Shown one piece after another: positions 3,224-38,144 of a stretch of 47,901 nucleotides of DNA (position 1 is its first letter; each line of letters opens with the position of its first letter). The notes under the pieces are model-generated. The model was given only the letters and a program-made list of their open reading frames with translations, was not told the origin of the DNA and made no database searches. Source of the DNA: Alphaproteobacteria bacterium (GTDB lineage Bacteria; Pseudomonadota; Alphaproteobacteria; Ferrovibrionales; Ferrovibrionaceae); the NCBI GenBank assembly GCA_947473805.1, contig CANJGB010000027.1, forward strand, positions 1-47,901. Reading direction: 5' to 3'. The position numbers were made by a program, and so were the translations under genes.

Positions 3224-5686
3224 ATGAAAATCCTAAGGCTACTCCTCGTTTTTGCGGTGATTGGGCTGGTATTGGCTGTAGCCGCCGGCAGCGCCGTCAT
3301 TTACGGCCTGTGGCATTTTGGTCGGGGCCTGCCTGACTACCAGCAATTGGCCGACTACAATCCGCCTGTGACCACCCGTGTCCACGCTGGCGACGGTCGC
3401 CTTATCGGTGAGTTCGCCCGCGAGCGCCGCCTGTTCGTGCCGATCGACGTCATCCCTAAATCAGTAATCCAGGCCTTCCTAGCGGCGGAGGACAAGAATT
3501 TCTACACCCATGGCGGTGTCGACCCGATGAGCGTGCTGCGCGCCGCGGTTCAGAACCTGGCCAATGCCGGGCAGAACCGGCGCCCGGTCGGCGCGTCGAC
3601 TATCACGCAACAGGTCGCAAAGAACTTCCTGCTGACGAACGAAGTTTCCATCGCGCGCAAGGCGAGGGAAGCCATCCTGTCGTTCCGGATCGAGCGGGCG
3701 TTCAGCAAGGACCGCATCCTCGAACTTTATCTGAACGAAATCTATCTCGGTGCCGGCGCGTATGGCGTGGCCTCCGCAGCGCTAACCTATTTCGACAAGT
3801 CGCTCGACCAGCTCTCGCCGGCTGAAGTGGCGTTCCTGGCCGCCCTGCCGAAGGCGCCGAACAACTACAACCCCGTCCGCTTTCCCGAACGCGCCAAGGC
3901 GCGTCGCGACTGGGTGTTGGATCGAATGGCGGACGAAAACTTTATCTCGCAGGCCGACCTGCACGCGGCGCAGAACCAGCCGCTCAGTACCCGGCTGCGC
4001 GGCGATGTGGAAGTGGTGCGCGCGGACTGGTTCACCGAGGAGCTGCGCCGTACATTGCTCGGCCGCTACGGCGAGAAGGGTCTGTACGAGAGCGGGTTGA
4101 GCATCCGCTCGACGCTCGACACCGGAATGCAGCGGATCGGCGAGCGTGGCCTTCAGGCCGGGCTTGTTGCCTATGATCGTCGCCATGGCTGGCGCGGCCC
4201 AATTGCGAAAATAGACCCTGGCGGCGAGTGGAAGCAGCAATTGGCCGCCGTGCCGACGATTGGCCTGATGGAAAATTGGCGTCTCGCCGTTGTGCGCGAA
4301 GCCGATGCCCAATCCGTCGGCATCGGGTTTGCCGATGGCAGTACCGGCCGCATTCCGTTCGAGGAACTGCGTTGGGCGCGCCGGACCATCAAGGCCGAGC
4401 AGACGCTTGGCCCGCCGGTCAAGACCGCATCAGAAGTGGTCGCGCCTGGCGACGTCGTTGCCGTCGAGCCGGTGAAAGACGCACCCAAGGGTGTTCATGC
4501 CTTGCGCCAAATCCCCGAGGTTGGCGGTGGCTTGGTCGCCATGGACCCGCATACCGGCCGTGTGCTGGCGTTAGTCGGCGGTTGGGACTTCAAGCTGAGC
4601 CAGTTCAATCGCGCCACCCAGGCACAGCGTCAGCCTGGGTCATCGTTCAAGCCTTTCGTATACGCTGCCGCGTTGGACAACGGGTTCACACCGGCCAGCC
4701 TCGTCCTCGATGCGCCATTCGTACTCGATCCGGGTGCGGGTCAACCGAAGTGGAAACCAGACAACTACACACATGAATTCTATGGCCCGTCCACCTTGCG
4801 GCTTGGCATCGAGAAGTCGCGAAACCTGATGACGGTGCGGTTGGCCCAGGCCGTTGGCATGGACGTGGTGAGCGACTATGCCCATCGGTTCGGTGTGGTC
4901 GACAACATGCCGCAATTGCTGCCGATGGCGCTGGGTGCTGGCGAGACCACCCTGCTGAAGTTGACGACCGCCTATGCGGAACTGGTCAATGGCGGCAAGA
5001 AGGTTGTGCCGACACTGGTCGACCGTGTGCAGGACCGGAACGGGAAGACGGTCTATCGTCACGATACGCGGCCATGCCCCGCCTGCAGCGTGGAGTCATG
5101 GGCAAATCAGGCCGAGCCTGAGGTTCCCGATACGCGCGAGCGGGTAATCGACGCCGCCACCGCCTACCAGACTGTTTCCATGCTTCAGGGGGTTGTCGAG
5201 CGTGGCACTGGCGTTCGCATCCGCGAGGTGGGGAAGCCGCTGGCCGGCAAGACCGGGACCAGCAACGATAGTTTCGACACGTGGTTTGTCGGCTTTTCGC
5301 CTGACCTGGCGGTGGGTGTGTTTGTGGGTTTTGACACGCCGCGGACCTTGGGTGGCAAAGAGACAGGCTCTTCGGTAGCCGTGCCTATTTTCCGCGACTT
5401 CATGATGGCCGCTCTCAAAGACAAGCCGTCGATCCCCTTTCGCGTTCCCACTGGCATCCGCCTGGTTCGTATCCAGGCCGAGACCGGCCTGCCGGCGCGC
5501 GCCGGCGACCGAAACGTGATCCTTGAGGCATTCAAGCCGGGTACCGAGCCAACGGGCGAGCGCGTGGTGCTCGACGGCTCTGGTCCAGAGGGCACCTCGA
5601 CCGGTGGCGTCAGCTATACCGGCAGCGGCGGCGCACCGGTCGATGCCGGTGCGGCACCGTCATCGGGAACGGGTGGGCTGTACTGA
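3224..5686 (+). CDS. mrcA: Penicillin-binding protein 1A, bifunctional peptidoglycan synthase
   Basis: This class A PBP of 820 residues polymerises lipid II and cross-links the glycan strands in the periplasm. I chose the ATG at 3224 because it opens directly on a signal-anchor helix (MKILRLLLVFAVIGLVLAV); an earlier in-frame start would add a non-hydrophobic leader. The glycosyltransferase (GT51) domain shows EDKNFYTHGGVD and GASTITQQVAKNFLL. The transpeptidase domain has the SxxK serine (SSFK), the SxN motif (SRN) and KTGTSND. Length is close to E. coli PBP1A (about 850). It stands alone on the plus strand after the truncated kinase. Two closely spaced cysteines (PCPACS) in the transpeptidase insert are uncommon. 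The symbol could equally be ponA. Confidence 0.93.
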   Translation: MKILRLLLVFAVIGLVLAVAAGSAVIYGLWHFGRGLPDYQQLADYNPPVTTRVHAGDGRLIGEFARERRLFVPIDVIPKSVIQAFLAAEDKNFYTHGGVDPMSVLRAAVQNLANAGQNRRPVGASTITQQVAKNFLLTNEVSIARKAREAILSFRIERAFSKDRILELYLNEIYLGAGAYGVASAALTYFDKSLDQLSPAEVAFLAALPKAPNNYNPVRFPERAKARRDWVLDRMADENFISQADLHAAQNQPLSTRLRGDVEVVRADWFTEELRRTLLGRYGEKGLYESGLSIRSTLDTGMQRIGERGLQAGLVAYDRRHGWRGPIAKIDPGGEWKQQLAAVPTIGLMENWRLAVVREADAQSVGIGFADGSTGRIPFEELRWARRTIKAEQTLGPPVKTASEVVAPGDVVAVEPVKDAPKGVHALRQIPEVGGGLVAMDPHTGRVLALVGGWDFKLSQFNRATQAQRQPGSSFKPFVYAAALDNGFTPASLVLDAPFVLDPGAGQPKWKPDNYTHEFYGPSTLRLGIEKSRNLMTVRLAQAVGMDVVSDYAHRFGVVDNMPQLLPMALGAGETTLLKLTTAYAELVNGGKKVVPTLVDRVQDRNGKTVYRHDTRPCPACSVESWANQAEPEVPDTRERVIDAATAYQTVSMLQGVVERGTGVRIREVGKPLAGKTGTSNDSFDTWFVGFSPDLAVGVFVGFDTPRTLGGKETGSSVAVPIFRDFMMAALKDKPSIPFRVPTGIRLVRIQAETGLPARAGDRNVILEAFKPGTEPTGERVVLDGSGPEGTSTGGVSYTGSGGAPVDAGAAPSSGTGGLY

Positions 5687-28394: not shown

Positions 28395-28400
28395 ACCAGC

Positions 28401-28490
28401 GTCCGGCTTATTTAGGCTTATTCAGCTCTGTTTCGGCTTATCCGGGCTTATTCAGGCTTGTTTAGGCTTATTTGAGCTTATTCAGGCCGA
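28401..28490. repeat. 10-bp tandem repeat array in the anmK 3' region
   Basis: Nine successive 10-base units fit the consensus TTYAGGCTTA with one to a few changes each, in strict 10-base phase from 28401 to 28490. It begins 6 bases after the anmK stop and is much richer in A+T than the surroundings. The unit length is close to one DNA helical turn and is not a multiple of three, so it is unlikely to be coding. Function is unknown. Confidence 0.85.
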
Positions 28491-28570
28491 GTTTATGGGT
28501 GTTGGGCCGGCGAATTTCGCGGAAAACCGCCATTTCGGGCGGTGTTTCGGGTCTTACGATTTCAAAGAGC

Positions 28571-28604
28571 GATCTGCTGAAGCAGATCACCGTAATATGG
28601 TGAT
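28571..28604. repeat. Two interlocking inverted repeats
   Basis: GATCTGCT-GA-AGCAGATC (28571-28588) is a perfect 8-bp inverted repeat. Its last three bases are also the start of ATCACC-N7-GGTGAT (28586-28604), a perfect 6-bp inverted repeat. The two hairpins are mutually exclusive as RNA, or they could be adjoining protein sites as DNA. They lie between the 10-bp array and the promoter of the 103-aa gene. Confidence 0.75.
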
Positions 28605-28657
28605 ATTCCTAGTATAGTCAATATAGCCTAACACGAACCGCCTTATCCTCGTCGGAA

Positions 28658-28687
28658 TTGACAGTACCATCATTCGTGTTCTATGTT
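28658..28687 (+). promoter_or_regulatory. Sigma-70-type promoter of the 103-aa gene
   Basis: TTGACA (28658-28663), an 18-base spacer and TATGTT (28682-28687) give a near-consensus promoter. The likely transcript start is near 28694, about 25 bases before the ATG at 28720. The -10 box lies inside the LexA-type box. Confidence 0.65.
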
Positions 28688-28692
28688 TGTTC
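28678..28692 (+). promoter_or_regulatory. LexA-type SOS box (GTTC-N7-GTTC)
   Basis: GTTC (28678-28681), seven bases and GTTC (28689-28692) match exactly the direct-repeat LexA operator known from alphaproteobacteria. The seven-base gap contains the -10 box of the promoter, so bound LexA would block transcription. DNA-damage induction of the following gene is therefore predicted. An exact match to eight fixed bases can also occur by chance, but here the position over the -10 box supports it. Confidence 0.65.
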
Positions 28693-28719
28693 TCATCGAG
28701 AATTCGAGGAGTTCAGGCC

Positions 28720-29031
28720 ATGGCCCGCCCGGTTTCGCTCACCTTGCTGCGTCAGCGTTATCCCCACGCCATCCGCCGCGTGGAGCCCAGGGACGGCTTC
28801 AACGACCTGGCCGATATTGCCGCGTGGCTGAAGGAAACCGGCTACCCGACCCAAAGCCTGGTCGAAGAAGGCGCGGTGCGGGTGGTGGAATGGCGGTTCG
28901 AGACCGAGACCGCGGCGTGGCGCTTCATGAACACGTTTGGCGGCACACCAGATACCGATGTTGAGCCGCTTCCCCGCCTGGCATTTGCGGCAATGCCGCA
29001 CGCGCTGGCGGAAGACGCGATCCCGTTCTGA
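28720..29031 (+). CDS. Uncharacterised 103-aa protein, predicted SOS-regulated
   Basis: I do not recognise this protein. The ATG at 28720 has GAGGAG at 28706-28711 and starts MARPVSLTLLRQRYPHAIRR. The protein is soluble-looking, has no signal or membrane helix, no cysteine, and a central RVVEWRFETETAAWRFMNTFGG stretch rich in aromatic residues. It lies alone behind a strong promoter with a LexA-type box, and a 13-bp hairpin follows its stop. The known small SOS inhibitors of Caulobacter (SidA, DidA) are short membrane proteins, which this is not. A role in the DNA-damage response is inferred only from the operator. Confidence 0.7.
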   Translation: MARPVSLTLLRQRYPHAIRRVEPRDGFNDLADIAAWLKETGYPTQSLVEEGAVRVVEWRFETETAAWRFMNTFGGTPDTDVEPLPRLAFAAMPHALAEDAIPF

Positions 29032-29046
29032 CCATATCCCTCACAT

Positions 29047-29076
29047 GACATGGCCCGCTGTGAAGCGGGCCATGTC
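29047..29076. terminator. Strong hairpin between convergent genes
   Basis: GACATGGCCCGCT (29047-29059) and AGCGGGCCATGTC (29064-29076) form a perfect 13-bp stem with a GTGA loop, located between the ends of the 103-aa gene and the convergent hydrolase. It lacks a clear T run, but its place and stability suit a bidirectional terminator. Confidence 0.65.
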
Positions 29077-29097
29077 GGCTTGGAATGAGTAGGGGGC

Positions 29098-37226: not shown

Positions 37227-38144
37227 TCAGCGCGCGCGGACGGGAAACAGGCCCTGCGGCCGTACCGCGAGCGTGATGACCATGAGAAGGTAGATGATCA
37301 TCGAGCCGGCTGCGGCGCCCGCCGTCTGTGCCGCCGAGGCCGGGAGAACCACCTTGAGCAGGTCGGGCAGGAAAGCGCGGGCAAGGGTGTCGAGCAGCCC
37401 GATCGAAAGTGCCGCCACGAACGCGCCGCGCACCGAGCCGATGCCGCCCAGCACGGTGACGACCAGGGCGATGACGAGGATACGCTCGCCCATGCCGCTC
37501 TGCACGGTCAGGATCGGCGCATTGAGGATGCCGGCCAGGCCCGCGAGCATGGCGCCGACGCCGAACACCAGCGAGAACAGGCTCGCCACGTCGATGCCGA
37601 GCGCGCCGGTTATCTCGCGGTCCGACGCGCCCGCGCGGATACGCATGCCTATGCGGGTGCGGCTGATCGTGAACCACAGGCCCAGCGCCACGACGAGGCC
37701 GGCGGCGATGACCAGCAGCCGGTAGGCGGAGTAGGGCACGCCCGGCAGGATTTCCACGCTGGTACGCAGCCAGCCGGGCAGCGCGATGGTCCGACCGGCC
37801 TTGCCCCAGATCACCAGTACGAGATCGTTGAAGAACAGCAGCAGCCCGAAGGTCGCCAGCAGCTGGTCGAGATGCGAGCGGGCGTAAAGCCGGCGCAGGC
37901 AAATGACCTCGACCGCGATGCCGAGCAGCAGCACCGCGGGCAAGGCCAGCAGTGCACCGAGAACGAAACTGCCGGTCCAGTCGATCAGCGTGACCGCGAA
38001 ATAGGCGCCCATCATGTACAGCGAACCGTGCGCCAGGTTGACTAGGTTCATGATGCCGAACACGAGGGTCAGCCCGGCGGCGAGCAGGAACAGCATGAGG
38101 CCCAGCTGCGCGCCGTTCAGAATCTGTTCGAGGGCGAGGATCAT
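37227..38144 (-). CDS. livH: Branched-chain amino-acid-type ABC transporter permease LivH
   Basis: The 305-residue permease has the LivH opening LEQILNGAQLGLMLFLLAAGLTLVFGIMNLVNLAHGSLYMMGAY and about eight transmembrane helices. SDREITGALGIDVASLFSLVFGVGAMLAGLAG is the coupling segment. The gene follows the substrate-binding protein by about 127 bases that hold a paired palindromic repeat, which may reduce expression of the membrane genes relative to the binding protein. Confidence 0.9.
   Translation of the reverse strand: MILALEQILNGAQLGLMLFLLAAGLTLVFGIMNLVNLAHGSLYMMGAYFAVTLIDWTGSFVLGALLALPAVLLLGIAVEVICLRRLYARSHLDQLLATFGLLLFFNDLVLVIWGKAGRTIALPGWLRTSVEILPGVPYSAYRLLVIAAGLVVALGLWFTISRTRIGMRIRAGASDREITGALGIDVASLFSLVFGVGAMLAGLAGILNAPILTVQSGMGERILVIALVVTVLGGIGSVRGAFVAALSIGLLDTLARAFLPDLLKVVLPASAAQTAGAAAGSMIIYLLMVITLAVRPQGLFPVRAR

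Follow-up and report, generated by a model that had tools for sequence, protein, structure and literature searches.

A small alphaproteobacterial gene with a LexA operator in its promoter, and a domain family associated with SRAP proteins

The Locus

The window, by which we mean the whole stretch of DNA analyzed (47,901 nucleotides), carries a gene for a protein of 103 residues in a segment flanked by anmK and a convergent hydrolase gene. The features of this segment are as follows.

28395..29097, no strand: 703-bp segment separating anmK from the convergent hydrolase gene, with the 103-aa gene inside (comparison with five relatives)
28658..28663, + strand: -35 element, TTGACA (sequence; the paralogue locus L005 has the same element, likewise 14 bp before the box)
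28678..28692, + strand: LexA operator GTTC-TATGTTT-GTTC, GTTCTATGTTTGTTC (box form common to the SOS genes of this genome and of relatives)
28682..28687, + strand: -10 element, TATGTT, within the operator (sequence)
28693..28719, + strand: 5' leader, TCATCGAG-NN-TTCGAGGAG (near-identical in the paralogue locus)
28706-28711, + strand: SD element GAGGAG, in the 5' leader (sequence)
28720..29031, + strand: SOS-boxed gene, ATG at 28720, stop ending at 29031; product of 103 aa, pI 5.1, soluble, a stand-alone member of a SRAP-associated family (sequence, family profile)
28744..28947, + strand: family domain, residues 9-76 approximately (hhalign of the family versus three paralogues, columns 9-76)

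The preliminary description of this DNA had placed before the gene a near-consensus promoter with its -10 element enclosed by GTTC-N7-GTTC, and the sequence confirms this, the promoter being TTGACA-N18-TATGTT with a -35/-10 spacer of 18 bp, and the operator standing 27 bp from the gene, with a good ribosome-binding site ahead of it. The G+C content of the three codon positions of the open reading frame (0.69/0.50/0.79) is what coding sequence would show in this genome, anmK having 0.72/0.53/0.89. A hairpin in the leader was considered and dropped, its folding being no better than that of shuffles (z 1.1 and 0.05). The whole segment is absent in five relatives (L028, L029, L031, L033, and L040), in which the gap between anmK and the hydrolase gene measures from 1 to about 30 bp, and the 103-aa gene thus appears, on this comparison, to be a lineage-specific gain within a 703-bp insertion. 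Directly 3' of anmK (28405-28487) lies an imperfect array of six GGCTTATT-type units, each about 11 bp long, and an array similar to it is found elsewhere in the genome (L016, 1523-1575).

The protein, whose N-terminus is MARPVS, is charged throughout (GRAVY -0.25) and has no transmembrane segment. In the four libraries Pfam, NCBIfam, PDB, and PHROGs there was no family that it matched significantly (best PHROGs score, E 0.034), and single-sequence searches with it gave no matches in the family genomes, plasmids, phages, or viral and genome contigs. Three weak matches were rejected, one looking like an NADH-dehydrogenase subunit (L020), one like a pterin dehydratase (L022), and one being the antisense of a mutY-like gene (L046). 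Modeled alone by AlphaFold, the sequence gave a structure of too low confidence for use (pLDDT 44). Three further statements of the preliminary description hold with these results: that the product belongs to no recognized family, that it is not a membrane protein, and that its gene is not beside imuA, imuB, or dnaE2.

The Operator and the LexA Regulon of this Genome

The pattern GTTCN7GTTC is the published LexA consensus of Caulobacter (PMC12700426). In its bare form it occurs three times exactly in the window versus 1.3 expected, and the two matches other than the operator, which are inside coding sequence (at 3722, in a PBP-like gene, and at 38115, in a permease-like gene), are considered chance. 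Genome-wide it occurs about 100 times, near the chance expectation, which would favor reading the box as fortuitous, the gene being outside of LexA control or the reading frame untranslated. We consider this extremely unlikely: the AT-rich form of the box, GTTCN4TTTGTTC, is rare and promoter-located, with nine occurrences in the 3.3-Mb genome versus one for the reversed pattern, the box is common to paralogues and distant relatives of the gene, and the protein sequence is conserved. The bare pattern is weak evidence alone; the AT-rich form is the real signal.

Besides the window box, seven of the nine AT-rich boxes lie shortly upstream of gene starts, the targets being imuA, a radical-SAM gene of the PA0069 type, a gene for a FitA-like antitoxin with a comM-like gene behind it, a mutM-like gene, genes for peptidoglycan-binding proteins of 477 and 263 aa, and a pair of paralogues described below. 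The radical-SAM, FitA-like, and peptidoglycan-binding identities have Pfam and NCBIfam support, while imuA, comM, and mutM were named by eye. The ninth box (L004) is near mraZ, without a clear target. The lexA gene itself (L011; matches to PF01726 and PF00717) has GTTCTACGTTGGTTC upstream, and the box also stands ahead of imuA-like and radical-SAM genes in further genomes of the order. The claim of an alphaproteobacterial LexA operator is supported by the other SOS genes of the genome, which share the box. For the 103-aa gene, then, we have an operator overlapping the promoter, a boxed lexA in the same genome, and a box kept at homologues. A search for recA (PF00154) in the draft genome, which is 95% complete, gave no match that passed the cut-off, probably due to an assembly gap.

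Both of the peptidoglycan-binding proteins are encoded directly behind their LexA boxes, the one of 477 aa in L002 (532-1965, minus strand, box 2021-2035) and the one of 263 aa in L078 (123-914, minus strand, box 937-951), and they resemble bacteriocin- or lysin-like proteins induced by the SOS response.

Paralogues and a Wider Family

A second locus in this genome (C21:5349, L005) has the same promoter layout as the window gene, TTGACA-N14-GTTCTAGTTTTGTTC, and its leader is identical to the window leader at 22 of 27 bases; a 23-bp leader pattern has only two copies among 18 genomes of the order, both in this genome. The promoter at the second locus drives an open reading frame of 80 aa, with another of 70 aa close behind. 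These are tandem paralogues (BLASTP E 6e-6; z 9.6), and the 80-aa protein is also related to the window protein (E 0.026; p 0.004).

A profile of the three paralogous sequences retrieved one distant relative, in a genome of another alphaproteobacterial family (G699; E 2.2e-4). The LexA box GTTCGCATAATGTTC precedes its gene, with 6 bp between box and ATG, and the reading frame continues downstream into a SRAP domain (PF02586, E 1.3e-21). Because neither the box nor SRAP was in the query, both are independent of the selection. With the G699 sequence as a query, members were found on plasmids of Sphingobium and Paracoccus, and a six-sequence profile located 46 places in 38 of the 391 genomes of the order of G699, which, judging from the plasmid match, is probably Sphingomonadales. 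The members share a domain of the pattern (F/Y)PxxVxxxxPxxGFxxxLxxIxxWLxx...VxxRFxxExxAxxFxxxF.

The placement of the window protein in this family comes from a profile built without this genome. Among 1889 open reading frames (the window plus this genome's loci), that profile ranks the 80-aa paralogue first and the window protein second, clear of the rest. Alignment by hhalign of the family with the three paralogues gives a probability of 96.7 (E 4.2e-10), and with the window protein alone a modest 56 (E 1.1e-4). Twenty family members gave no match in the libraries searched, Pfam and NCBIfam included; the family is unnamed and is defined here, and it is absent from all four libraries searched.

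The preliminary description had made the box at orthologues a test of its reading, and the distant relatives speak in its favor: of 30 family loci, 19 have an exact LexA box no more than 75 bp upstream, versus about 0.1 expected over 30 at the chance rate of 0.0033 per locus, which was estimated from the remaining sequence of these loci. Many distant members (L087-L102) have a TAAT-like -10 element inside the box and about 6 bp between the end of the box and the ATG, and their mRNA may be leaderless. As noted by eye, some stand-alone members are near endolysin-like or ArdC-type antirestriction-like genes (L105, L114, L124, L126, L127, and L134).

Association with SRAP

SRAP proteins (PF02586; YedK of Escherichia coli, YoqW of Bacillus subtilis, human HMCES) are among the closest known systems, relatives of the window protein being encoded in frame with SRAP or adjacent to it, under a LexA box. 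At 19 of the 46 places the two domains share one reading frame, the family domain first and SRAP second, a count of partly close relatives and not of independent events, and in one locus (L113) SRAP is a separate adjacent gene, upstream. About half of the family stands alone, so SRAP is a frequent trait that is not needed for membership, and the link may not hold for the stand-alone members. The window protein itself has no PF02586 or other Pfam match, no N-terminal Cys2, and no N-terminal Cys-Asn motif; it corresponds instead to the upstream partner domain, named in no library searched. No SRAP gene was found in the window, beside the paralogues, or in the stretches of this genome that were read; among relatives in its taxonomic family, G017 encodes a SRAP-like protein (E 2.7e-11).

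The chemistry of SRAP needs Cys2 as a free N-terminus. The codon just ahead of the SRAP cysteine, examined in 15 joined frames, is GTG in 14 and ATG in one, and never another valine codon, while GTG makes up only 42% of the valine codons in those joined reading frames. At codon -4 of the junction, purine-rich, SD-like triplets (GAG, GAC, GAT) recur. In these sequences, some of which are close relatives of one another, the pattern is suggestive of a further translation start within the frame, at the SRAP cysteine. One joined frame (L093, 775-1779, minus strand) is broken by a stop within the small domain. In YedK, Met1 is removed by an aminopeptidase, and the active-site residues are not required for the removal (PMC9436759); an earlier paper had proposed autoproteolysis (PMC3765255).

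SRAP is already known as SOS-associated (PMC3765255). Support from outside may also be drawn from Sphingopyxis granuli, in which two SRAP loci are up 8-10 fold in anoxia, along with lexA, recA, and imuAB-dnaE2 (PMC6472365). A parallel, in organization only, is the ImuB-C domain, likewise a small SOS domain found alone or fused to a DNA-damage protein, whose partner is ImuB and not SRAP (PMC3765255).

Two other roles must be weighed against these data. One is that of an SOS-induced inhibitor of cell division, arresting septation during DNA repair as SulA, SidA, and DidA do, by a soluble mechanism. Such inhibitors are small, strongly SOS-boxed, and lineage-variable, as this gene is, and SidA and DidA of Caulobacter are also small alphaproteobacterial proteins induced by DNA damage (PMC4211646). 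However, these are division-blocking membrane peptides, DidA being SOS-independent, whereas the window protein is soluble and no single-pass membrane peptide, and its relatives are linked to SRAP and not to division genes, making this role very unlikely.

The other is that of SOS-controlled cargo of mobile elements, aiding plasmids or prophages during the entry of single-stranded DNA or during the SOS response of the host, and hitch-hiking with SRAP without any joint action. PsiB and ArdC of plasmid leading regions are small plasmid proteins tied to the entry of single-stranded DNA and the SOS response. Members of the family are indeed found on two plasmids, one of them adjoining ssb on a conjugative plasmid, a point of likeness to PsiB and ArdC; one member (L084) adjoins an IstB-like gene, several stand-alone members have the phage- or antirestriction-like neighbors listed above, and the window gene itself is within a lineage-specific insertion. 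On the other hand, the family has no sequence match in Pfam or NCBIfam, most of its members come from genome assemblies and not from plasmid records, and they are LexA-boxed. The same-frame fusions, together with the case of SRAP as a separate gene, are hard to explain by hitch-hiking alone, and we consider a role as mere cargo unlikely.

Conclusions

Overall, the paralogues, the wider family, and the repeated link to SRAP strengthen the first proposal and make it more specific. The best explanation, to which we assign a probability of about 0.6, is that the 103-aa gene is a stand-alone, LexA-controlled copy of the SRAP-partner domain, serving in the SOS tolerance of abasic or single-stranded DNA damage. 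The parts of this explanation differ in strength: LexA regulation and family membership are strongly supported, as far as sequence can tell, the functional link to SRAP is by association, and the biochemical step is one that we infer. Its promoter makes it very probable that the gene is induced by DNA damage. From the box and the known mechanism of LexA, the repressor bound at 28678-28692 would cover the -10 element and block RNA polymerase, and its RecA-triggered cleavage would release the promoter. The product would be a free-standing copy of a domain, some 90 residues long, that, in Sphingomonadales-like genomes, appears upstream of SRAP, in one frame and under one LexA box. The domain would assist SRAP on single-stranded DNA with abasic sites during the SOS response, by guiding, capping, or releasing it, and in this genome it would act in trans.

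A more elaborate scheme, possible but doubtful at present, is that one SOS transcript gives rise to two forms of SRAP, a long one, with the domain ahead of Cys2, covering it and blocking cross-linking, and a free one, made from the internal GTG with Cys2 exposed. The domain would then be a safety cap or a delivery module, and the stand-alone copies would supply its function in trans.

Abasic sites in single-stranded DNA are shielded by SRAP proteins, such as YedK and human HMCES, whose delivery, control, and release are, to our knowledge, only partly known. A presumably damage-induced domain that repeatedly stands before SRAP, with an apparent second start at the catalytic cysteine, would make the control of SRAP testable in bacteria, and the gene described here points to an undescribed helper in the pathway of abasic-site repair.
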